Origin: a virus | IMG/VR virus record: IMGVR_UViG_3300022752_000083 | Location: 1 to 56,808 of that record | DNA length: 56,808 bases | Direction: 5' to 3' (one strand) | Part shown: positions 10,110-47,305 of the stretch, piece after piece | Numbering within the stretch: the first letter of the stretch is position 1 | Layout of the letters: each line of letters opens with the position of its first letter | Program-made: the position numbers and the translations under genes | The notes under the pieces: generated by a model | Told to the model about the DNA's origin: nothing | The model's database searches: none | Seen by the model: the letters and a program-made list of their open reading frames with translations, nothing else

Positions 10110-12169
10110 CAGATATTCCTGCCGCCCCTATTCTTCAAATTCCCGTTATGGTGGATTACACCAACAGGGACTTCTACTCGTTGCGAGACCAACTCATTCA
10201 ACGCGTCAAAGACCGCGTGAATACGGGTACCGGAAATGCATGGTACGGTAATGACCCCGCTGATTTTGGTCTTGCTCTTATTGAGGCGTTTGCTTATATG
10301 GGAGATGTTACTAGCTATTATGTTGACCGCGTGGCAAATGAAAATACCCTGTTCACCGCGTCTCAACGCGATAGCGTTTTAAACCTTGCTTATACATACG
10401 GGTACATCCCTTCCGGGTACAAGCAAGCATCTTGCTCAGTAACTTTTGCCTCTGCTGGTATTGGTTCTGCTTCTGTTCCAGCAGGAACTAAACTTCGTGC
10501 AACCATTACAAAGAACGATGTTGTTGAGCAAGTAATATTTACCACTAGTTCTGTTGCCGACTTTTCCTCATCTACAAAATCTATTTCTTCAATATCTAGC
10601 TCTAGTGGAACGGTTACTTATACTTCAAATGGTCATGGGTTTACTTCCGGTAACTATGTGACGGTTACTGGCTCAACTAACTACAATGTAACTAATGCAG
10701 TTATTACAGGTGTAACTACTAATACTTTTAGCATTTCTAGTTCTTTGACTGGAAGTACTTCTACCGGTACTGCTGTTTCTGCTGCTAAAACCATCTTGGT
10801 AACAGCGACTCACGGAGAAGATGTTTCTACTAGAACGGCAAACGTAGCTTCATCTCCGGATATCTCCGGTGAAAAAATAGGTACATCAGACGGAACTGCA
10901 AGTCAAATTTTTCAACTTAAAGAATCTCAAGTTGTTGATGGAACAATTAAAATCTTTGTTGTCACTGGAACAGGTGCAAGCAAGACCTATGGTCAATGGA
11001 CCGAAGTCATTCATCTTGCTGATTATGGTCCTACTGACTCAGTATTCAAGGTAATTCGTGGAAGCAATAACTCCGTTTTTGTTCAATTTGGTGACGGTGT
11101 TTCCGGAGCTATCCCCAATAATTACTCAACCATTAAAGCACAGTATGTTTTTGGTGGAGGAATTGTAGGCAATGTTCCTGCTGAATCTATTAATGCTTTT
11201 GTAGCTGCGGCTCCAAGCGGCATTACAGTAAGCAATCTTGAACGTGCAACAGGTGGTCTTGACCCCGAGGGTCTTGACGCAATCCGAGTTAATGCCCCTC
11301 AAGCTTTTAGCGCACTTAACCGTGCCGTAAGTCTTACGGACTACGAAGGTTTAACTCTTCAAGTCAGTGGTGCGGGTAAGGCAAATGCTGTGGCTGATGT
11401 ATGGTCTTCCGTAACCGTGTATCTTGCTCCAACAAGCACAGACTCTTCGGATTTGTACCCCGGTAAAAACACAAGTAACACAGCAGTACTTGGTTCGTGG
11501 ACCACACTTCAAACATCCGTGCAAGACGCATTAAAGCCCAAACTACTCATTGGTACCACTCTTACTGTTTCTCCTCCTACTTATACTCCCGTTTATTTAA
11601 CAGTGCAATACAGCAAACAACCTGAAGTAACTGATGCTCAAATTAAAGCTTCTATAAAAGATTACATAAACACGTATTACGGATATGCTTCGAATACTTT
11701 TGCACAGATTATTCACCCTGAGGAAATTGAATTTATTCTTCGGTACGTTCCCGGTCTACTCAATGTCTGGGTTACAGAGCTTCGTCGTGACTCTGCTCCT
11801 TCGGGTGCTCTTGGTACGTTGGTTGGTTCTGCTAGTGAAATATTCGTGTTCAACCCTGACAACATTACTTCTACCCAGAGGAGTACTGATGCCACGCTGT
11901 CATCACTAACAAAGACAGTTGGAACTCTTAGCCCGAGCTTTGTTTCAACTACTTTGAACTACTTGTTGGACATTGGGTCAGCTACGTCTACAGCAATTAC
12001 AGCCGTAGCAAATGCTGCTGGAGCAACCGTTACCGTAAATGGTGGAACAAGCCCCCAAACAATTACCAATAACAGTGTTGGAACTACAGTGAATGTCCCA
12101 GTAGTTGTTACTGCTGCGGATGGTCGTACCCTACAGACATACACGGTAGCTGTTTACAAGTCCGCATAA
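10106..12169 (+). CDS. Baseplate wedge protein, gp6/J-like, with inserted beta modules
   Basis: A 687-residue protein. The N-terminus 'VDYTNRDFYSLRDQLIQRV' and 'PADFGLALIEAFAYMGDVTSYYVDRVANE' is the conserved start of baseplate J/gp6 proteins, which dimerise to form the ring around the hub. Residues ~155-230 are a Ser/Thr-rich insert with 'GHGFTSGNYVTVTG', a module common in phage tail proteins. Residues ~350-460 return to the J-like core ('RATGGLDPEGLDAIRVNAP..F......AVSLTDYEGL'). The last ~60 residues resemble a cadherin/Ig-like beta sandwich ending 'TYTVAVYKSA', probably surface exposed. ATGA coupling with gp25 and TAATG coupling with the spike gene. Confidence 0.88.
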   Translation: MTDIPAAPILQIPVMVDYTNRDFYSLRDQLIQRVKDRVNTGTGNAWYGNDPADFGLALIEAFAYMGDVTSYYVDRVANENTLFTASQRDSVLNLAYTYGYIPSGYKQASCSVTFASAGIGSASVPAGTKLRATITKNDVVEQVIFTTSSVADFSSSTKSISSISSSSGTVTYTSNGHGFTSGNYVTVTGSTNYNVTNAVITGVTTNTFSISSSLTGSTSTGTAVSAAKTILVTATHGEDVSTRTANVASSPDISGEKIGTSDGTASQIFQLKESQVVDGTIKIFVVTGTGASKTYGQWTEVIHLADYGPTDSVFKVIRGSNNSVFVQFGDGVSGAIPNNYSTIKAQYVFGGGIVGNVPAESINAFVAAAPSGITVSNLERATGGLDPEGLDAIRVNAPQAFSALNRAVSLTDYEGLTLQVSGAGKANAVADVWSSVTVYLAPTSTDSSDLYPGKNTSNTAVLGSWTTLQTSVQDALKPKLLIGTTLTVSPPTYTPVYLTVQYSKQPEVTDAQIKASIKDYINTYYGYASNTFAQIIHPEEIEFILRYVPGLLNVWVTELRRDSAPSGALGTLVGSASEIFVFNPDNITSTQRSTDATLSSLTKTVGTLSPSFVSTTLNYLLDIGSATSTAITAVANAAGATVTVNGGTSPQTITNNSVGTTVNVPVVVTAADGRTLQTYTVAVYKSA

Positions 12170-14718
12170 TGATTATCGACTCCTACGGTAACCGACGATT
12201 CTTCGGAATCTACCGAGGTGTGGTTCAGGATAACGCTGACCCCCTTGGTAAAGGGCGTGTCAAATTAATGGTTCCGCAGGTACTCTTTGACGCGATGACT
12301 GAGTGGGCGTCTATTCAAGACGCTCACGGTGTTCATGTAGACCCTTTCCAAAATGGGCAAGGTGTATGGGTGCAGTTTGAGGGGGGTGACCCTTCCTTCC
12401 CTGTTGTTGTAGGGGAATTTGGCGGAGACGCTACTAACCTCAATCTGGCATTGAATGACCTTACTGACGTAGACACCACAGGTGTGTACAACGGGCAGAC
12501 AATAATTTACCAAGAGTCAACAAACTCATGGGTACCCGGTGCCGGTTCTGGGGGTGGGTCTCAGGGACCTCAAGGAAGCCAAGGACCGCAGGGTACTCAG
12601 GGTGCTCAAGGACCACAAGGACCACAAGGAACTACTGGGTCGCAAGGTTCGCAAGGACCACAGGGTTCAACCGGAATTCAAGGCACCCAAGGTCCGCAGG
12701 GCACTGCCGGACTTGATGGTGACCGTTACCACACAACGTCCACTACCGCCCACACAATTACCAATAACGGGTCACTGACGTTTTACACGACTGACCTTAA
12801 TCTTGACTACTCGATTCAACAGCACCTCATTATTGCTTATGACGCATCAAATTACATGCATGCTTCGGTTACCTCTTACAACCCTGCTACTGGTCAACTA
12901 GTCGTAAACATTGATAGAAAGACGGGTTCAGGCACGTACTCCTCGTGGGAAATCAACCTCGACGGTGCGGTAGGTACTCAAGGTCCTCAAGGCTCGACTG
13001 GTGCTCAAGGTACCCAAGGTCCGCAAGGCGCACAGGGAGCTACCGGTAGTCAAGGACCTACGGGTCCTCAGGGACCACAAGGCTCAACTGGTGCTCAGGG
13101 AGCAACTGGAAGTCAAGGACCGCAAGGACCCCAAGGTTCTCCGGGAGCACAAGGAGCCACAGGAAGCCAAGGCGCAACTGGTCCTCAAGGTGCTCAGGGT
13201 CCTCAAGGTGTACAAGGTTCAACTGGTCCTCAGGGTTCCTCCGGAGCGCAAGGCGCTACCGGTAGTCAAGGAGCAACAGGACCGCAAGGTACGCAGGGAC
13301 CACAAGGGTCGGCTGGTACTAACGGAACCAATGGAGCTGCTGCAACAATAGCTGTTGGTACTACCACCACTGGTGCTGCCGGTACATCTGCCTCGGTAAC
13401 CAACTCGGGCACATCTTCGGCTGCAACCTTTAACTTCACAATTCCACAAGGTGTACAAGGTGCGCAAGGAGCCACAGGAAGTCAGGGACCGCAGGGTGCA
13501 CAAGGACCGCAGGGTACTCAGGGTACTCAGGGACCTCAAGGTCCGCAGGGGGCTGCCGGAACTAACGGAACTAATGGAACGCAAGGAAGTCAGGGACCGC
13601 AGGGTGCACAAGGACCACAAGGTGCTGCGTCTACAGTTGCTGGTCCTCAAGGAAACCAAGGCGAGTCTTCTGGGTTACAGTTCTATTGGAAATCTGCAAC
13701 AGCAGATGATGTACCTAATGGTTATGTGTATGGAATCACTGCAACAAATGCCACACCACCAACATCTATAAATCAAGTTGCATCTCTTCTTTTTAATGGT
13801 AACGACATATATGGAATGCAACTATATGACTTCATAAATACGTGGGATGACTCTACCTCAACCATAAAAGGCTACATCCATATAAAAAGTAATAGTAATG
13901 CTGATAGTGATTATGCAATATATAAAGTAAATTCGGTTTCAGACTATAATGCAAATAGTGGACCATATAACAGCGTTAACGTTACTTTCATCACAGGTAA
14001 TGGAACAATTTTTAGTCTTGATGAAAGAGTAACAATTGAGTTCTACCGTACTGGAGATAAGGGTTCTCAAGGAACGCAAGGAGCACAAGGAGTACAAGGT
14101 GTGCAAGGAGCCACAGGAAGTCAGGGACCGCAGGGTGCACAAGGACCGCAGGGTACTCAGGGTGCCCAAGGACCTCAAGGTGCTAGCGGTAATGGTCTAG
14201 TACCAATTGTGCCGTCGAGTGTGACTGTTGGTTCGGGTTCTGCGAGTGTTGGAACTAACGGTCTTGTCACGTTTACGAGTGCGTCAAGCGTGCGACTCAA
14301 TGGTGTTTTTAGCGCGACCTACAAGAACTACGTTATTTATTTTTCAGCCCCAATTGGAAATGCAAACAACACACTAGCTAACACAACCCTTGTTCGTTTT
14401 TCTACAAGTGGAACTGTAAACACAACTAGTTCCTATACACATACAGGCGCCTACACACAAGCCGTTGCACTAGCTTCTACAAGCCGAGGCACATCAACAG
14501 GAGCAACTTCTTCGGTTCTAGACTTTCTGCAAGACACCTGCATAACCCTATACGCGCCTTTTGAATCTCGTGGAACATCCGCGACATTTACCAATGCATA
14601 CGCTCAAACAAATATTTTTGGACAATTTGGATTCAACGCCGCAACATCTTTTGACGGTATTCAATTTTTCAACAACACATTTACAGGTACTGTTCAAGTT
14701 TACGGATTGGCTAACTAA
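12169..14718 (+). CDS. Tail spike/fibre: OB-fold spike domain fused to collagen-like repeats
   Basis: An 849-residue protein. Residues ~1-95 ('YRGVVQDNADPLGKGRVKLMVPQ', then 'GVWVQFEGGDPSFPVVVGEF') form a gp5/VgrG-type OB fold that would sit on the hub. After this come four Gly-X-Gln-rich collagen-like blocks at ~131-184, ~268-386, ~428-500 and ~632-680. They are separated by a beta spacer (~185-267), the widespread fibre linker 'SVTNSGTSSAATFNFTIPQG' (~405-426) and an AT-rich module (~503-630). The C-terminal ~170 residues form a compact head that probably binds receptor or host surface. The OB-to-collagen fusion makes one trimer both central spike and fibre. DNA repeats in the collagen blocks favour domain exchange. 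Confidence 0.8.
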   Translation: MIIDSYGNRRFFGIYRGVVQDNADPLGKGRVKLMVPQVLFDAMTEWASIQDAHGVHVDPFQNGQGVWVQFEGGDPSFPVVVGEFGGDATNLNLALNDLTDVDTTGVYNGQTIIYQESTNSWVPGAGSGGGSQGPQGSQGPQGTQGAQGPQGPQGTTGSQGSQGPQGSTGIQGTQGPQGTAGLDGDRYHTTSTTAHTITNNGSLTFYTTDLNLDYSIQQHLIIAYDASNYMHASVTSYNPATGQLVVNIDRKTGSGTYSSWEINLDGAVGTQGPQGSTGAQGTQGPQGAQGATGSQGPTGPQGPQGSTGAQGATGSQGPQGPQGSPGAQGATGSQGATGPQGAQGPQGVQGSTGPQGSSGAQGATGSQGATGPQGTQGPQGSAGTNGTNGAAATIAVGTTTTGAAGTSASVTNSGTSSAATFNFTIPQGVQGAQGATGSQGPQGAQGPQGTQGTQGPQGPQGAAGTNGTNGTQGSQGPQGAQGPQGAASTVAGPQGNQGESSGLQFYWKSATADDVPNGYVYGITATNATPPTSINQVASLLFNGNDIYGMQLYDFINTWDDSTSTIKGYIHIKSNSNADSDYAIYKVNSVSDYNANSGPYNSVNVTFITGNGTIFSLDERVTIEFYRTGDKGSQGTQGAQGVQGVQGATGSQGPQGAQGPQGTQGAQGPQGASGNGLVPIVPSSVTVGSGSASVGTNGLVTFTSASSVRLNGVFSATYKNYVIYFSAPIGNANNTLANTTLVRFSTSGTVNTTSSYTHTGAYTQAVALASTSRGTSTGATSSVLDFLQDTCITLYAPFESRGTSATFTNAYAQTNIFGQFGFNAATSFDGIQFFNNTFTGTVQVYGLAN
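13464..14163 (+). repeat. 61-bp perfect direct repeat flanking an AT-rich module in the fibre gene
   Basis: Bases 13464-13524 and 14103-14163 are identical over 61 bp. The match continues about 10 bp further left with a single mismatch. A partial third copy lies near 13580-13617. The offset is 639 bp, exactly 213 codons, so recombination between the copies would delete or swap the intervening module without a frameshift. The DNA between ~13680 and ~14045 is visibly AT-richer than its surroundings and probably has a different recent origin. Confidence 0.85.
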
Positions 14719-18723: not shown

Positions 18724-19761
18724 ATGAATTTACCACCAGAAATATTTGACTCCAAGCTAACATCCTCGGAGTTCAAAACCATCATTGCGATGTATCATCT
18801 GGCAAGCCCTGAGGGGCTGGTTGACGTGTCTAAAGATGAGTTAACCATCCTAACTGGGTACAGTGCTGAAACTTTGCGACGCTCATTCAGGGGTCTGGAG
18901 AACGCCGGGTTATTGGAGACCCAGAGAACAAAACGCAATCTTGGAAAGTGGTCTCGGAACATTTACCACCTCGTTTCACCATCACACAATTCTGTGGAAA
19001 CAGGGGTTTTACCATCACACATTTCCGAGGATTTTACCCCTCAACCATCACCCATTTTGGTGGAAATCGCAGGTATACCATCACACAATTCTGTGTGGTC
19101 AACAGCTAGTAGTAATAGTAATAGTAGTAAAACTACCAAATTAAATACTTCGTATTTAATTGGGGACGCGTCCGTCCCCACAAAGGAGGTCATTGTGGAG
19201 AAGTGGAGACCTCGTGGTGAAGACACTGCGGGAGATGACGAGATTGGCGGAGTAGGTCTTTTTGAAGATGAGGCTCTCCGGAAACAACCCCAAGCCAAGA
19301 TTGACAAACGGGATGTCCGTACGCGTTGGAAGCGTCCAGAAGACGAGTGGACCCCCGGCGATGTTGCTGCGGAGTTCTCTTACCGGCTTTCAATGCACTA
19401 CCCCATGACCCCCGCGTTAGTGAACACCAAAGACATTCGTGGTGCGCTATCCCGGTGGCGGAAGCAGTACGGAATCACTCCGCAAATCGAGATGGAAATC
19501 ATGCGGATGTTTTTTGAAGACGAGCGAAACTTCCGAGATGCCGACAAGAAAGCCTCACAGGTTCACACGTGGTATTTGCACATGTTCAAGACCCACATGC
19601 AAAGTGCTTTTGACCGACTTGGCATTGAGTACGAGAAAGACACGCCTACCCAAGAGGTCACAGACGTGTTGTATGCTTCGGACGGCAGGACGTTCGAGAA
19701 TAACATTGCTGGGCGTTCTGCACTGAAGAACTACGAGGAAAGGATTTCCAAGAATGCTTGA
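18724..19761 (+). CDS. Replication initiator with winged-helix N-terminus and internal iterons (lambda O-like arrangement)
   Basis: A 345-residue protein. Residues ~10-85 are a winged helix ('LTSSEFKTIIAMYHLASPEGLVDVSKDELTILTGYSAETLRRSFRGLENAGLLE') of the type found in phage replication proteins and GntR/DnaD-like initiators. Residues ~85-130 are an 11-residue repeat ('PSHNSVETGVL', 'PSHISEDFTPQ', 'PSPILVEIAGI', 'PSHNSVWSTAS') that is simply the translation of DNA iterons. Residues ~158-330 are a helical C-terminal domain with many charged residues, and could bind the loader or helicase. The helicase loader gene overlaps its end. The layout (initiator with the origin inside, then loader) mirrors lambda O/P. 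It may also be made in a short form from GTG 19195. Confidence 0.72.
   Translation: MNLPPEIFDSKLTSSEFKTIIAMYHLASPEGLVDVSKDELTILTGYSAETLRRSFRGLENAGLLETQRTKRNLGKWSRNIYHLVSPSHNSVETGVLPSHISEDFTPQPSPILVEIAGIPSHNSVWSTASSNSNSSKTTKLNTSYLIGDASVPTKEVIVEKWRPRGEDTAGDDEIGGVGLFEDEALRKQPQAKIDKRDVRTRWKRPEDEWTPGDVAAEFSYRLSMHYPMTPALVNTKDIRGALSRWRKQYGITPQIEMEIMRMFFEDERNFRDADKKASQVHTWYLHMFKTHMQSAFDRLGIEYEKDTPTQEVTDVLYASDGRTFENNIAGRSALKNYEERISKNA
18978..19096 (+). repeat. Four 20-bp iterons at exact 33-bp spacing (putative origin)
   Basis: Copies start at 18978, 19011, 19044 and 19077, each beginning ACCATCAC. Copies 1 and 4 are nearly identical (ACCATCACACAATTCTGTGG versus ...TGTGT); copies 2 and 3 are diverged but keep ACCATCAC.CA.TT and end in GG. 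A 33-bp period is close to three helical turns, so bound proteins would sit on one face of the DNA. Iterons inside the initiator gene, followed by AT-rich DNA, are the hallmark of lambda-type phage origins. Origin function is inferred. Confidence 0.7.
19102..19179 (+). other. AT-rich stretch and two hairpins next to the iterons (candidate unwinding element)
   Basis: Bases ~19107-19140 are AT-rich with a TAG/TAA trinucleotide character. A perfect 10-bp-arm inverted repeat follows: AATTAAATAC (19139-19148) and GTATTTAATT (19152-19161) around TTC. Immediately after, GGGGACG (19162-19168) pairs with CGTCCCC (19173-19179). The AT-rich hairpin is a plausible DNA-unwinding element beside the iterons. 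The GC hairpin lacks a T-tract, so it is not an ordinary terminator. Confidence 0.55.
19183..19197 (+). promoter_or_regulatory. Strong internal Shine-Dalgarno with in-frame GTG in the initiator gene
   Basis: AAGGAGGT (19183-19190) is nearly the complete anti-16S sequence and stands 4 nt before GTG 19195, which is in frame with the initiator. Translation from here would give a 188-residue product lacking the winged helix and the repeat segment. No other codon in this gene has such a signal. A short isoform could act as a regulator or a second initiator component, as dual starts do in some plasmid Rep proteins. That role is inference. Confidence 0.5.
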
Positions 19762-20473
19762 CATGCGAACAATCGGTCTCAACAAGGAGCACTGGTTGAC
19801 AAAAATGTCGAACATTCCTACGCGCTACCTGCGCTGGGATTTTGACAACATTCGGGAAAGTCAGGGGAAACTCCCAATTGAACTTGAGGACTGGTTCCAT
19901 GACCTCATGGAGGGCAAAGTAATTCTTAACGTCGGTGGTCTCGGCACTACTGGAGTTGGCGTTTTGCTTGAGGGACCTCCGGGACGAGGTAAAACCACAC
20001 ACGCCGTAGCATCTTTGATTGAGTTTGTAAAGAACCTTCCCGAAGACACAGACCAAGCATCCAAGATTCTCCACATTCCTCGTTCGGCGTATGGTCGAAA
20101 TATGCGACCTGTTTACTACCTGACATTTACTGACTTGCTTTACCGCAAGAAGGCACTGTTTGACGCTGACATGGACGACCGTAAACGTTTGCAAGAAGAG
20201 ATGGACGGGTTCCACGGTAGAGCCAAAGAAGACACGCTCAATGTTCGTTTACTAGTTTTAGATGACCTTGGAAAAGAGTACGGCTCTGAGTACGACAAGT
20301 TCACTTTTGATGACATTCTTCGGACTCGTTACGACAAGGGTCTTCCAACAATCCTGACTACCAACGTTTCGCGCGAGACGTGGAAGGAAGTTTACTCAGA
20401 AGCAATGGAGTCTTTCGCACATGAAGCCTTTCGACGCGTTAGACTAGATGGAAAGGACTTGCGTAAAAACTGA
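19754..20473 (+). CDS. DnaC-like helicase loader (AAA+ ATPase)
   Basis: A 239-residue AAA+ protein with a Walker A 'GPPGRGKTTHA' (~74-84), Walker B 'RLLVLDDLGKEYGSEYD' (~158-170), and a sensor-type 'LPTILTTNVSRE' further on. DnaC/DnaI/lambda P-type loaders deliver the replicative helicase to an initiator-bound origin. It overlaps the initiator's end by 8 bp and precedes the helicase at 21219. A second in-frame ATG lies at 19763. The N-terminal ~50 residues, preceding the ATPase, likely contact the helicase. Confidence 0.85.
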   Translation: MLDMRTIGLNKEHWLTKMSNIPTRYLRWDFDNIRESQGKLPIELEDWFHDLMEGKVILNVGGLGTTGVGVLLEGPPGRGKTTHAVASLIEFVKNLPEDTDQASKILHIPRSAYGRNMRPVYYLTFTDLLYRKKALFDADMDDRKRLQEEMDGFHGRAKEDTLNVRLLVLDDLGKEYGSEYDKFTFDDILRTRYDKGLPTILTTNVSRETWKEVYSEAMESFAHEAFRRVRLDGKDLRKN

Positions 20474-21218: not shown

Positions 21219-22469
21219 ATGGCACACGATAACGAATACAGGTTAATCAGTAAAGTAATCACAGACCGGAACATCATTCCGGTAATTGAAGTGGGGATTC
21301 GGGATGACTGGATTGTTGACCCCGACCTTCGTCGTATATGGAAGTTTGTCCGAGAGCATTACGCCAAATACCGTGAAGTACCGACCTATACAGCGGTAAA
21401 GGATAACTTCCCCAACTTCACAGCACTCAATGTTGAGGACACGATTGACTATCTCATTGACCAGATGGTCGCTTTCCGCCGTCGTACTTTGGTTAATCAA
21501 GGTGTCGCTCAGGCTGTTGCCGAGATGCAACAAAATAACTTTGAGTCCGCTCTTTCTGAGATGTCGCGCACTATCTCTGTTGTTAATGAGCAAGGCATCG
21601 TTGGAACCCAACACGTTGACTTAACCAAAGACCCTGAGTCTCGTTTTCTTCACTATGAGGAAATGCAGAACAACGAGTTTCTTGGCATTCCTACTGGTTT
21701 TGCTGCTATTGACGAAGCTACCGCAGGGCTTCAAGGTGGACAGTTAATTACCGTTATTGCTCCTCCCAAAACTGGTAAATCGCAAATTGCTTTGCAGATG
21801 GCTATCAACACTCACGCCATTGGTAAAGTACCAATGTTTCAAAGTTTTGAGATGAACAACGCAGAGCAGACCCAACGTCACGACGCTATGCGGGCACATC
21901 TCTCACACAAGGACTTGCGTCTCGGTAAGTTGTCGGAGAGCGAAGAGAATCGGTATCGAAACATGCTTATCCAAATGGCAGACGCACCTCCATTTCATTT
22001 GGTTGATGCCGTTAACGGTTTGACGATTGACGCACTCGTGGCTAAGGCTGAGCAACTAAAGCCAGACATTATGTTTATTGACGGTGTGTACCTCATGCTG
22101 GACCAAGTAACGGGTGACTCCAACACTCCTCAAGCATTGACCAACATTACCCGTGGTCTCAAGCGAGTAGCACAGAGCATGGACATCCCAGTCGTTATTA
22201 CAACTCAGACCTTGCTGTGGAAAATGCGCAACGGCAAAGTTACCGCAGACTCAATTGGTTATTCGTCTTCCTTCTTCCAAGACTCCGATGTCATTCTTGG
22301 TCTTGAGCCAGTAGACGGCGATGAAGAGGTTCGACTTCTGAAAGTTGTGCAATCTCGAAACGCTCCTCCAGAGGAAACTTCCATTACATGGCGGTGGGAT
22401 ATAGGATGCTTCCATGATGAAAGCAAGAAGTTTGAATGCAAATACTGCACACCTTGGATTCAGCAATGA
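21219..22469 (+). CDS. Replicative DNA helicase, DnaB-like (RecA-fold)
   Basis: A 416-residue helicase. The N-terminal ~120 residues are helical, as in the DnaB primase-interaction domain. 'FLGIPTGFAAIDEATAGLQGGQLITVIAPPKTGKSQIALQMA' gives the helicase core with Walker A APPKTGKS at 181-188. 'PDIMFIDGVYLML' is the Walker B region, and 'VVITTQTLLWKMRNG' follows. The enzyme unwinds the fork on the lagging strand. It is slightly shorter than bacterial DnaB (about 450-470). Start ATG at 21219 with 'AAGGGA' upstream. The stop overlaps the primase start by ATGA. Confidence 0.9.
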   Translation: MAHDNEYRLISKVITDRNIIPVIEVGIRDDWIVDPDLRRIWKFVREHYAKYREVPTYTAVKDNFPNFTALNVEDTIDYLIDQMVAFRRRTLVNQGVAQAVAEMQQNNFESALSEMSRTISVVNEQGIVGTQHVDLTKDPESRFLHYEEMQNNEFLGIPTGFAAIDEATAGLQGGQLITVIAPPKTGKSQIALQMAINTHAIGKVPMFQSFEMNNAEQTQRHDAMRAHLSHKDLRLGKLSESEENRYRNMLIQMADAPPFHLVDAVNGLTIDALVAKAEQLKPDIMFIDGVYLMLDQVTGDSNTPQALTNITRGLKRVAQSMDIPVVITTQTLLWKMRNGKVTADSIGYSSSFFQDSDVILGLEPVDGDEEVRLLKVVQSRNAPPEETSITWRWDIGCFHDESKKFECKYCTPWIQQ

Positions 22470-23446
22470 TTGACATTGACATTGAAGAAGTCCTCATTCG
22501 TCTGGGCATTGATTTTGAAGAAAAAGGCAATGAAGCCCTAGGTCTTTGCCCCATGCACAAGGCTCGTACGGGCAAGGATGACCACTCACCGTCATGGTGG
22601 ATAAACCTTGATACCGGACAGCACATCTGTTTCTCCTGTCAATACAAGGGGAATGTTCTCCAGTTAATCTGTGATATCGAAGAGTTTTACGTAAAGAACT
22701 GGGGAGACACTTACAGTTATGATTACCAAGCCGCAAAACGTTGGCTAGCAGAACTTGGAGATATTTCCCCTGAAAGACTTGCGGAAATGCTGGCTGCTAT
22801 TCCACGGCGAATTGAGGAGACTCCCAAACCACTTGAAGTATCAGAGGCACATCTTGCGGTTTTTGTTTCCCCTCCTGATGACAAACTTCAAGAACGTAAC
22901 CTTTCCCGCGAGTCGGTTGAGGCATACAACATCCTGTGGGATGAGCGCAGGAAAGCGTGGGTTTTACCCTTCTATGACCCTTACACTAAAAAGCTATTAG
23001 GTTGGCAGGAAAAGGGGACCGTAGAACGGACCTTTATGAATAGACCAGCAGGGCTTCCTCGGTCCAAGACTCTATTTGGTTTTGGGCAAATGCAAGACAG
23101 TGTTGTTTACCTTGTGGAGTCTCCACTAGACTGCGCACGATTACACACCGCAGGATTCCCCGGAGCAGTAGCAATCTGTGGGTCGTCTATCAGCGAGACC
23201 CAACTTCGCATCATTCGCTATGCTGACCGTGTAATTGCTGCTTTTGACAACCCCAAAATAGACTCTGCTGGAAAGAAGGTTTCTAGTGAGTTGAGGCAAC
23301 AAGCAATCGTATACGGAATCAACTTGTCATTCTTTAACTACGGTGACACGGGCAAGAAAGACCCCGGAGATATGACCGACAATGAGATAGCATGGGGTAT
23401 ACAGAACTCTACCTCAAGCCTCCTAGGAGAACGCGCGTATGTTTAA
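22466..23446 (+). CDS. DNA primase with CHC2 zinc-binding domain
   Basis: About 326 residues from ATG 22466, which overlaps the helicase stop. 'GLCPMHKARTG' (C28, H31) and 'HICFSCQYKGNVLQLI' are the CHC2 zinc ribbon of DnaG-type primases. The middle ('ESVEAYNILWDERRKAWVLPFYDPYTKKLLGWQEK') is the DnaG N-terminal core part. 'DSVVYLVESPLDCARLHTAGFPGAVAICGSSIS' followed by 'RVIAAFDNPKID' is a TOPRIM domain (E of 'VES', D.N in place of DxD). It lays down RNA primers. Adjacent helicase and primase form the primosome. Confidence 0.9.
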   Translation: MIDIDIEEVLIRLGIDFEEKGNEALGLCPMHKARTGKDDHSPSWWINLDTGQHICFSCQYKGNVLQLICDIEEFYVKNWGDTYSYDYQAAKRWLAELGDISPERLAEMLAAIPRRIEETPKPLEVSEAHLAVFVSPPDDKLQERNLSRESVEAYNILWDERRKAWVLPFYDPYTKKLLGWQEKGTVERTFMNRPAGLPRSKTLFGFGQMQDSVVYLVESPLDCARLHTAGFPGAVAICGSSISETQLRIIRYADRVIAAFDNPKIDSAGKKVSSELRQQAIVYGINLSFFNYGDTGKKDPGDMTDNEIAWGIQNSTSSLLGERAYV

Positions 23447-45320: not shown

Positions 45321-45806
45321 ATGCAAATACTGGTGCAACTAGACGGCGTTCTGCGGAATTCTGACGACCAAATCATCCCCACGGGGATAATCATGGCGTC
45401 TACATTGACTGTCTATAATCAGTTGACCTATATGTCAACGATGACGAGAGCCGAGACCGAGCGTTGGCTCAACGTAAACAAAATCGTTGACTTCGATAAC
45501 GTAATTGATAACTCTGTGGCTTTGGCTGGGGAAAGTCTGGAAGAGCGACAGATTAACTATGCTCGCTCTCGTGGTGCTATCGACTTGTTCATCACCGGAG
45601 ACCCCCACCTGTGGGCTTACGCTTTTGACCTCGGCATTGCATCCGTGATGTTTGCTCAACCTTCTTACCTGCGACCTGAGTTTCGACCTGATGCTCCTCG
45701 TAAAGTACGTGCATGGTCTGAGATTGAAGAGGCTGTGGAAAAGCAGAACGAGCTTCGGACCACCGACCGTCGCCTTACTCGCACAGAAACTTTAAACTTC
45801 GAGTGA
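45321..45806 (+). CDS. HAD-like hydrolase candidate
   Basis: A 161-residue protein. 'MQILVQLDGVLRNSDD' begins like a HAD phosphatase, but the first Asp of the DxD is Gln (Q-L-D), so activity is doubtful. 'YARSRGAIDLFITGDPHLWAYAFDLGI' fits the later 'D' strand of the fold. It precedes the TGT-like gene with a GTGA overlap. Confidence 0.6.
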   Translation: MQILVQLDGVLRNSDDQIIPTGIIMASTLTVYNQLTYMSTMTRAETERWLNVNKIVDFDNVIDNSVALAGESLEERQINYARSRGAIDLFITGDPHLWAYAFDLGIASVMFAQPSYLRPEFRPDAPRKVRAWSEIEEAVEKQNELRTTDRRLTRTETLNFE

Positions 45807-47305
45807 TTATCTTTGGTGGCGTAGAGATTCCAAGTAACCGCACTCTTTTGGAGAGGAGCGGTGTTCAACACGTCATGCTCAACTACTGGGGCTTGCGCAA
45901 ACGTGGGCTTCCCAAAACCAAAGAGTATTTGATTGGTGAGCACTTTTTGCCTGACATGAAAGTGTGGGTAGACTCTGGAGCTGTCCAAGCTGATAAGGCT
46001 AACCTGTCTCGTCAGGAGTTGGAAGACTACGCTGCGGACTACGAGGACTTCATCGCTATCAACTACGACCGCATCGAGGGCTGGGTAGAGTTCGACAGTC
46101 AGGTGCTCGGGCTTCCTGCTATTCAGCAGAACCGAGCTGCCTACGAGAACGACCCCAAGCTCTGGGTAGTCTGGAGAGAGTCCTACGGGCAGATGCTCTT
46201 GCAACGATGGGCTTCTGATTATGCTAACGTTGCTATTCCTTACGAGACTATAGAGTCTGTGACTAACCTTTCTACGGTTACGCGCTCCTTGACTCAGAAG
46301 CATGGTGTTGCTTTCCATGCTCTTGCTACTGCTAAACCTGACAACCTGCGCCAGATTCCATTTGCTACTGCATCTACACTTGCTTGGATTTCCCCCATGC
46401 GTAGAGGCGAAACAATCGTTTGGGATGGCATGAAGCTCATGCGGTATCCAAAAAAGATGAAGGCACAGGCTCGACCAAGATACCGAGCGCAAGTGCTGTC
46501 TGCTGGATTAGACTTTGATTTGTTTGTTGCGGATGACACTTTGGAATCTACACGGGTTGCTATCTGGTCATTTTTACAGTTGGAGAGGTCAATGGATAAA
46601 GATAAACCAGAATTACGCGCTATAAAAGGTGGCAAAGATGACTTGTTATCTGATAACAGTGATGACACCCTATACAGCGGTTTGATGGAATTAGGGGTAG
46701 GGTCTTCTAATAACAGTGGGTCTGAGATGCGGAAACATGAAGCCTCAGAAGTGATTCCCAGAGACCCCTCAGAGGTCACTCCGCTACCTGTTTTCGGGTA
46801 CTCAATGAAGACTATTGTAGACGTAGATGATGCCGGTAACGAGGTGCTTAGAGACGCGCCTGTGGTGCAGTCCAACGGGGTGTCTTTGCGCAACTGCAAC
46901 ACCTGTTTTGTGGCTTCCAATTGCCCTGCTTTCAAGCCTGATACGACCTGTGCCTTTAACCTGCCAGTAGAGGTTCGTACCAAAGAACAATTAAAGGCTC
47001 TTCTTACTGCAATCATTGAAATGCAGGGGCAAAGAGTAGCATTTATGCGCTTCCAAGAGGAATTGAACGGCGGGTATGCTGACCCCAATGTGTCCCAAGA
47101 AATGGATAGATTATTCAAGTTAGTTAAGTCCGTCAAAGAATTAGAAGAGAATAAAGAGTTCATCAGAATCACTGCTGAACGCCAGTCCTCTGGTGGAGTA
47201 TTGAGTGCCATTTTTGGTGATAGGGCTGCTGCTCTGAGAGAGATGGAACAACCTCTAAATGAAGAGCAAACCACTATGGTTATTCGGCAATCCATCGAAA
47301 ACTAG
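45803..47305 (+). CDS. TGT/DpdA-like N-terminal domain fused to a Cys-rich C-terminal domain
   Basis: A 500-residue protein from GTG 45803. Residues ~1-260 look like the TIM barrel of tRNA-guanine transglycosylases/DpdA: 'MKVWVDSGAVQAD' (D57-S-G), 'WVEFDSQVLG', then 'HALATAKPDNLRQIPFATASTLAWISPMRRGETIVWDG'. Residues ~270-345 are a low-complexity acidic linker. Residues ~360-480 ('NCNTCFVASNCPAFKPDTTC', then 'RTKEQLKALLTAIIEMQGQRVAFMRF', '...LFKLVKSVKELEENKEF') form a helical Cys-cluster domain that I recall from actinophage proteins encoded near terminase; it may relate to packaging. No deazaguanine-synthesis gene is in the window. Confidence 0.6.
   Translation: MIIFGGVEIPSNRTLLERSGVQHVMLNYWGLRKRGLPKTKEYLIGEHFLPDMKVWVDSGAVQADKANLSRQELEDYAADYEDFIAINYDRIEGWVEFDSQVLGLPAIQQNRAAYENDPKLWVVWRESYGQMLLQRWASDYANVAIPYETIESVTNLSTVTRSLTQKHGVAFHALATAKPDNLRQIPFATASTLAWISPMRRGETIVWDGMKLMRYPKKMKAQARPRYRAQVLSAGLDFDLFVADDTLESTRVAIWSFLQLERSMDKDKPELRAIKGGKDDLLSDNSDDTLYSGLMELGVGSSNNSGSEMRKHEASEVIPRDPSEVTPLPVFGYSMKTIVDVDDAGNEVLRDAPVVQSNGVSLRNCNTCFVASNCPAFKPDTTCAFNLPVEVRTKEQLKALLTAIIEMQGQRVAFMRFQEELNGGYADPNVSQEMDRLFKLVKSVKELEENKEFIRITAERQSSGGVLSAIFGDRAAALREMEQPLNEEQTTMVIRQSIEN

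Follow-up and report, generated by a model that had tools for sequence, protein, structure and literature searches.

Why should the middle of a phage gene be occupied by regular repeats, an AT-rich run and two hairpins, and does this stretch serve the protein, the messenger or the DNA itself? The question arises in a linear virus record of 56,808 bp (IMG/VR IMGVR_UViG_3300022752_000083), the whole of which we call the window and which encodes, by PHROG match, a tail sheath, its own DNA polymerase, a UvsX-like recombinase, a DNA helicase and a RuvC-like resolvase. A sequence-only reading had proposed a lambda-like layout, with iterons and an AT-rich tract inside an initiator gene and the loader gene next. 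That layout is confirmed, as are the four repeats at an exact 33-bp period (starts 18978, 19011, 19044 and 19077), the AT-rich run, the 10-bp-arm hairpin at 19139-19161 and the GC hairpin at 19162-19179. Each repeat also contains a dyad, CACA-N4-TGTG, which that reading had missed, as it had the core and the Shine-Dalgarno (SD) sequence with in-frame GTG directly 3' of the hairpins. The features are as follows.

18724..19761, + strand: O-like replication initiator gene, 345 aa (ORF; PHROG matches; AlphaFold2 model; PDB folds)
18978..18997, + strand: iteron 1, dyad CACA-N4-TGTG (repeat search)
19011..19030, + strand: iteron 2 (repeat search)
19044..19063, + strand: iteron 3, the most divergent (sequence)
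19077..19096, + strand: iteron 4, adjoining the core (repeat search; relatives)
19099..19106, + strand: core TCAACAGC (conserved in relatives)
19107..19138, + strand: AT-rich tract, candidate unwinding element (sequence; comparable tract in relatives)
19139..19161, no strand assigned: hairpin 1, AATTAAATAC-TTC-GTATTTAATT, 10-bp stem (bottom-strand C-GAA-G triloop)
19161..19180, no strand assigned: hairpin 2, TGGGGACG-CGTC-CGTCCCCA (folding; relatives)
19182..19189, + strand: internal SD AAAGGAGG (-12.7 kcal/mol with the anti-SD; in all 39 distinct loci)
19195..19761, + strand: nested start GTG, codon 158, of a predicted 188-aa C-terminal-domain protein (SD; separate ORF in the split clade)
19754..20473, + strand: DnaC-like helicase loader (phrog_50, 2.5e-26; 62-95% identical in L005 and L010)
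21219..22469, + strand: DnaB-like replicative helicase (PF03796, 1.5e-27; phrog_19)
22436..23446, + strand: DnaG-type primase, CHC2 zinc finger and Toprim (domain and PHROG matches)

The initiator and its neighbourhood

The loader gene lies directly 3' of the initiator and is followed by two small ORFs, the helicase and the primase, a synteny kept in relatives. The earlier claim of a winged helix in the initiator and a DnaC-like protein in the next gene held up, with an N-terminal HTH recovered and the next ORF matching phrog_50. Elsewhere in the window, positions 12169-14718 encode an 849-aa protein rich in collagen-like G-X-Q/G-P-Q repeats that adjoins the tail genes and is probably a tail or fibre protein, and a queuine tRNA-ribosyltransferase-like gene at 45803-47305 (phrog_887, 9.6e-57) suggests 7-deazaguanine modification of tRNA or DNA.

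In the AlphaFold2 model of the initiator (mean pLDDT 73), a winged helix (residues 1-83) is joined by a disordered linker (88-159), which has no confident structure, to a confidently helical C-terminal domain (184-344). The predicted disorder coincides exactly with the residues encoded by the iterons, tract and hairpins. Among 40 family members, the PHROG replication initiation/O-like families phrog_270 and phrog_678 are matched by 39 and 31, respectively (best 2e-9); the replication initiation match of the window protein itself is weak (1e-5). Neither the lambda O nor the RepA_N Pfam family matched the window protein, and neither appears among the families listed for the 40 members (25 of 40 families). 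The nearest PDB folds of the winged helix by Foldseek are the N-terminal domains of RepA initiators (4pql, 4pt7 and 5kbj; E 2e-3 to 3e-3, probability 1.0, TM normalized to the target of about 0.5), and no solved lambda O structure is among its fold matches; on the predicted model, then, the closest match would be plasmid RepA of the pSK41/pTZ2162 type rather than lambda O.

Selection on the repeats and the core

Protein-guided searches of viral contigs yielded initial relatives with 99%, 96%, 82% and 51% identity and a wider family of 73 loci at 31-99% identity. In addition, 2.9 million viral contigs were scanned blind, at the DNA level only, for hairpin 1 followed by GG-N-G-N-C. Of the 13 stretches recovered, 12 proved to be the same initiator gene, and some of these are so divergent that the protein searches had not yet reached them. 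No relative of the window initiator was found among 50,697 annotated phage records, where a relative used as query gave one weak HTH match, or in bacterial and archaeal genomes. Streptomyces phage GiJojo (DnaB 32%) was considered and rejected as a relative: the likeness between the C-terminal domain and the ORF preceding its DnaC-like gene is by eye only, and the profile comparison was not significant.

Within the window, a search with the 20-mer allowing up to three mismatches finds three of the four copies and nothing else in 56.8 kb (0.00 expected from shuffles). Between the window and L010 (82% protein identity), synonymous differences in unchanged codons number 26/68 in the winged helix, 67/144 in the C-terminal domain and 1/35 in the iterons and core, the last a figure that recombination within the element could have lowered (L004 looks recombinant). 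Synonymous change is thus 3% in the iterons versus 44% (93/212) in the two folded domains (Fisher p=3e-7; because the relatives are not independent, p values here and below are indicative), whereas amino acids change more in the iterons (22%) than in the winged-helix or the C-terminal segment. A repeat selected as protein would give the reverse pattern, and this argues that the iterons are selected as DNA. The sequence-only reading had named, as the outcome that would count against it, synonymous drift that destroys the DNA repeats while the protein repeat is kept; the opposite was found, with the DNA repeats kept and the amino acids drifting.

The same reading had pointed to an 11-residue repeat in the protein (PSHNSVETGVL / PSHISEDFTPQ / PSPILVEIAGI / PSHNSV). 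This repeat is real in the window but is not conserved as protein and is missing in many relatives; it is a by-product of the DNA within a linker predicted to be disordered. A purely protein-based account, in which an 11-residue repeat is selected and the DNA similarity reflects recent duplication, would explain why the 33-bp unit is codon-phased and why most other spacings are also multiples of three. Nevertheless, amino acids in the repeats vary freely and synonymous sites least, the segment is predicted to be disordered, and in the split clade described below the linker is not translated at all, so that this account seems very improbable. A frameshift in L004 was entertained as a case of DNA repeats outliving the reading frame and was dropped, as the near-identical L010 is intact. 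In L004 and L021, one extra A between iterons 2 and 3 runs the initiator frame into stop codons and is probably a recombinant junction or an assembly error.

Whether the 33-bp spacing is conserved had been left to an alignment of homologues, and a spacing of about 33 bp is kept in more distant relatives despite changed half-sites. In L005 and L022 (51%), three copies are still 33 bp apart with their letters changed in concert (TCA to TCC), and L025 and L066 have wholly different half-sites (GCCTC..GAGGC and CCAC..GTGG), again with 33-bp spacing. This is the commonest spacing (18 intervals), others being 24, 27, 30, 36, 42, 45 and 54 bp. Repeat number (1-5) and half-site sequence both differ between lineages. 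A counterpart of iteron 4 is present in nearly all relatives, including array-less lineages, which retain one site beside the core TCAACA. TCAACA occurs in 51/53 and TCAACAGC in 39/53 distinct linkers, also where the stretch is non-coding, and the core and the hairpin pair are more conserved than the iteron array.

The last site tracks the recognition helix, SxES occurring with TGTGGGGTCA, SRES with GGCATCA and SRTT with GAAACATCA. In the 22 loci that have a helix matching a simple motif, to which the comparison is limited, the partial correlation given C-terminal-domain distance is r=0.58 (permutation p=0.001). The correlation is support, though not proof, for recognition of the site beside the core by the winged helix. 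An alternative is that the element is an operator or another transcription signal (autoregulation, an internal promoter) and that replication starts elsewhere. The winged helix does resemble CRP/MarR-type regulators, and in one clade (L024, L027, L028, L032 and L036) a near-consensus promoter, TTGACT-17 bp-TATACT, lies over the core, possibly driving transcription through the origin. But only that clade has the promoter-like match, with a weaker form in L031; elsewhere it does not exceed shuffles, and no second iteron array of the same type exists within the 56.8-kb window. Moreover, an in-gene site beside loader, helicase and primase genes, with iterons and an AT-rich tract, is the arrangement of known in-gene origins. 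We regard the operator explanation as improbable.

The AT-rich tract opens with eight consecutive TAG/TAA triplets (19107-19130), as in bacterial DnaA-trio arrays. A DnaA-trio interpretation was rejected: it fits the window and a small number of close relatives (L010 and L103 retain the pattern in part), but not the family as a whole; the element contains no DnaA boxes. A separate cluster in the L022 record (G001, reverse complement, about 2909-2980) comprises three inverted perfect DnaA boxes (TTATCCACA/TGTGGATAA) and a 13-bp GC hairpin. It lies far from the initiator gene and is a possible second origin or DnaA-titration site in L022.

Hairpins, nested start and split genes

Hairpin 2, the GC hairpin GGGGACG-CGTC-CGTCCCC, has 8 bp when the pair T19161-A19180 is counted. 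Folded as DNA, the hairpin pair is unusually stable on either strand (z about -6; 0/200 shuffles as stable). Hairpin 1 is perfect, with 8-14 bp, in 61/66 loci, and hairpin 2 follows within a few bases. The loop of hairpin 1 is C-TTC-G in 42 loci and C-TAC-G in 19 (C-TWC-G in 61/61, also when loops were searched without constraint), so that the bottom-strand loops, C-GAA-G and C-GTA-G, belong to the C-GNA-G class throughout. In 32 distinct sequences, two-sided compensatory changes occur in 8/9 pairs of hairpin 1, to which this count is restricted, and 99.7% of cells are paired; with slid partners, pairing falls to 37-44%. The encoded amino acids do not explain hairpin 1, since synonymous shuffling almost never recreates the stem (mean p 0.001); by the same measure, hairpin 2 taken alone falls short of significance in several loci where its stem has 5 bp. 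Eight of 10 long relatives have a single copy of the core hairpin motif in the genome. Hairpin 1 is missing in five loci (L033, L037, L038, L061 and L080), and the pair is therefore not strictly required. TCAACA and an AT-rich tract persist in the first three and in L080; in L061 a single GGGTGCA-TTC-TGCACCC hairpin is present instead.

Just past the hairpins, an SD and an in-frame ATG (19), GTG (15) or TTG (5) are present in 39/39 distinct loci, preceding a conserved (N)KW motif. The mean anti-SD energy is -9.2 kcal/mol versus -2.5 for other in-frame NTG codons (p=2e-22), a comparison that is somewhat favourable because each locus is represented by its best candidate among a few starts. A separate C-terminal protein made from the nested start is implied by this signal.

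In one group of relatives the gene is divided at this very stretch. The first ORF of L095, L098, L099 and L101 ends after the winged helix (75 codons including the stop, ...AAAGTGA), and L100 is apparently of the same type. The next stretch, about 100 bp long, is non-coding and contains ATCAACAGC, an AT-rich tract, a hairpin 1 that reads AAAGATAATAC-TWC-GTATTATCTTT in three of the four, hairpin 2 and an SD; beyond it come a separate, ATG-started C-terminal ORF and the loader gene. The split rows included in the tree form one clade (100/98), so that a single change suffices, either a break in this clade or, as the root is not fixed, a fusion in the others. Because the element is non-coding in this clade, the fixed loop and the core persist there without coding constraint.

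The position of the hairpins, immediately 5' of a strong and universally conserved SD and start, raises the question of whether they act in the mRNA, insulating or regulating an internal ribosome site for the C-terminal protein and the loader; the origin would then consist of the iterons and AT-rich tract only. That the hairpins keep their place before the SD in the split clade is in keeping with such a role. An RNA stem, however, should show G-U pairs, and hairpin 1 has one G-T among 288 pair cells, at its outer edge; hairpin 2 has no top-strand G-T, and its three A-C or C-A mismatches are wobbles on the bottom strand only. This pattern favours DNA over mRNA as the acting molecule. Further, read on the bottom DNA strand, the fixed C-TWC-G loop falls into the special C-GNA-G class, and no Rfam match was found. 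An mRNA role for the hairpins therefore seems unlikely, if less so than the operator explanation.

A candidate origin and its counterparts

Of the explanations considered, a phage theta-type replication origin, placed between the DNA-binding and loader-recruiting halves of its own initiator and working by the route set out here, is probably the right one for this element. GC skew rises across the site in 8/9 genomes, but the site is not a global minimum, so that the skew is no more than weakly suggestive. The winged helix would bind every iteron at its dyad, the iteron that touches the TCAACAGC core being occupied in all cases, and the bound array would melt the adjoining AT tract; the C-terminal domain would then bring the DnaC-like loader with DnaB helicase, followed by primase. 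The hairpin pair, on the far side of the AT tract, would act as DNA, with hairpin 1 extruding from supercoiled DNA at the edge of the bubble, as do N4 hairpins of the C-GNA-G triloop class. Our best guess for the pair is a boundary of the bubble that also provides a single-strand site for entry or priming. The ribosome site right after the hairpins would yield a second, C-terminal-only protein, and in fused genes the element would be read through as a disposable linker. The fuller proposal combines these elements: a phage family that initiates at an origin whose supercoil-extruded hairpin pair serves as a single-strand loading or priming site, the same stretch doubling as linker and as ribosome site for a second initiator protein, in a gene that broke in one lineage (or fused in the others) exactly at the origin. 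This combination we put forward tentatively.

Lambda O and pSK41 RepA have already established that the linker-coding region of an initiator gene can house an origin. The literature searched yielded no description of the conserved fixed-loop hairpin pair, of the nested start or of a split of the gene at its origin. The lambda literature explicitly raises the question of a hairpin or cruciform (PMC7466680). The family described here is a natural series in which to ask why in-gene origins sit where they do and whether hairpins have a role there: sites number 1-5, half-sites vary with the recognition helix, a few lineages have lost the hairpins, and the element is coding or non-coding. Simple swaps could thus tell apart what the linker, the hairpins and the two protein forms do.

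The element is like the lambda-type origin (ori-lambda in gene O, with P downstream) in having inverted-repeat iterons and then an AT-rich tract mid-initiator, with the loader gene next. In both, the number of repeats is variable, and with it the linker of the protein; Stx phages, for example, have 6 iterons and 13 extra residues (PMC7466680). It differs in the lack of a Pfam lambda-O match among those seen, the approximately 33-bp spacing, the conserved twin hairpins with fixed loop, the internal SD and start, the split-gene clade and the complete phage-encoded replisome. In plasmid RSF1010, single-strand initiation (ssi) hairpins adjoin an iteron/AT-rich origin, and TrfA-44/33 are two initiator forms from one gene. 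These systems share with ours hairpins beside such an origin and two initiator forms, which are predicted here, and they belong to other protein families.

A further analogy is to the promoters of the N4 virion RNA polymerase. There, physiological supercoiling extrudes a short hairpin that has a sheared G-N-A pair in its loop, and SSB stabilises the hairpin on one of the two strands (PMC4496689). The C-G-closed G-N-A triloop on one strand is common to both, here in 61/61 hairpins. The analogy is not complete: in N4 the hairpin is a promoter for an injected RNA polymerase, whereas ours is a candidate, known from sequence, within a replication module.

Finally, the RepA_N replicons (pSK41 and pTZ2162) resemble our system in the separate helical C-terminal domain and in semi-palindromic boxes placed centrally in rep (PMC5703833, PMC7145576), and perhaps in the N-terminal winged helix, for which they give the best PDB match. 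They differ in that our phage has its own DnaC-like loader, and the hairpin pair and nested start have not been described in them. The pSK41 initiator can dispense with its origin-encoded linker, and replication is still supported by proteins that lack it (PMC5703833); the predicted disorder and the split clade suggest the same for the linker here.
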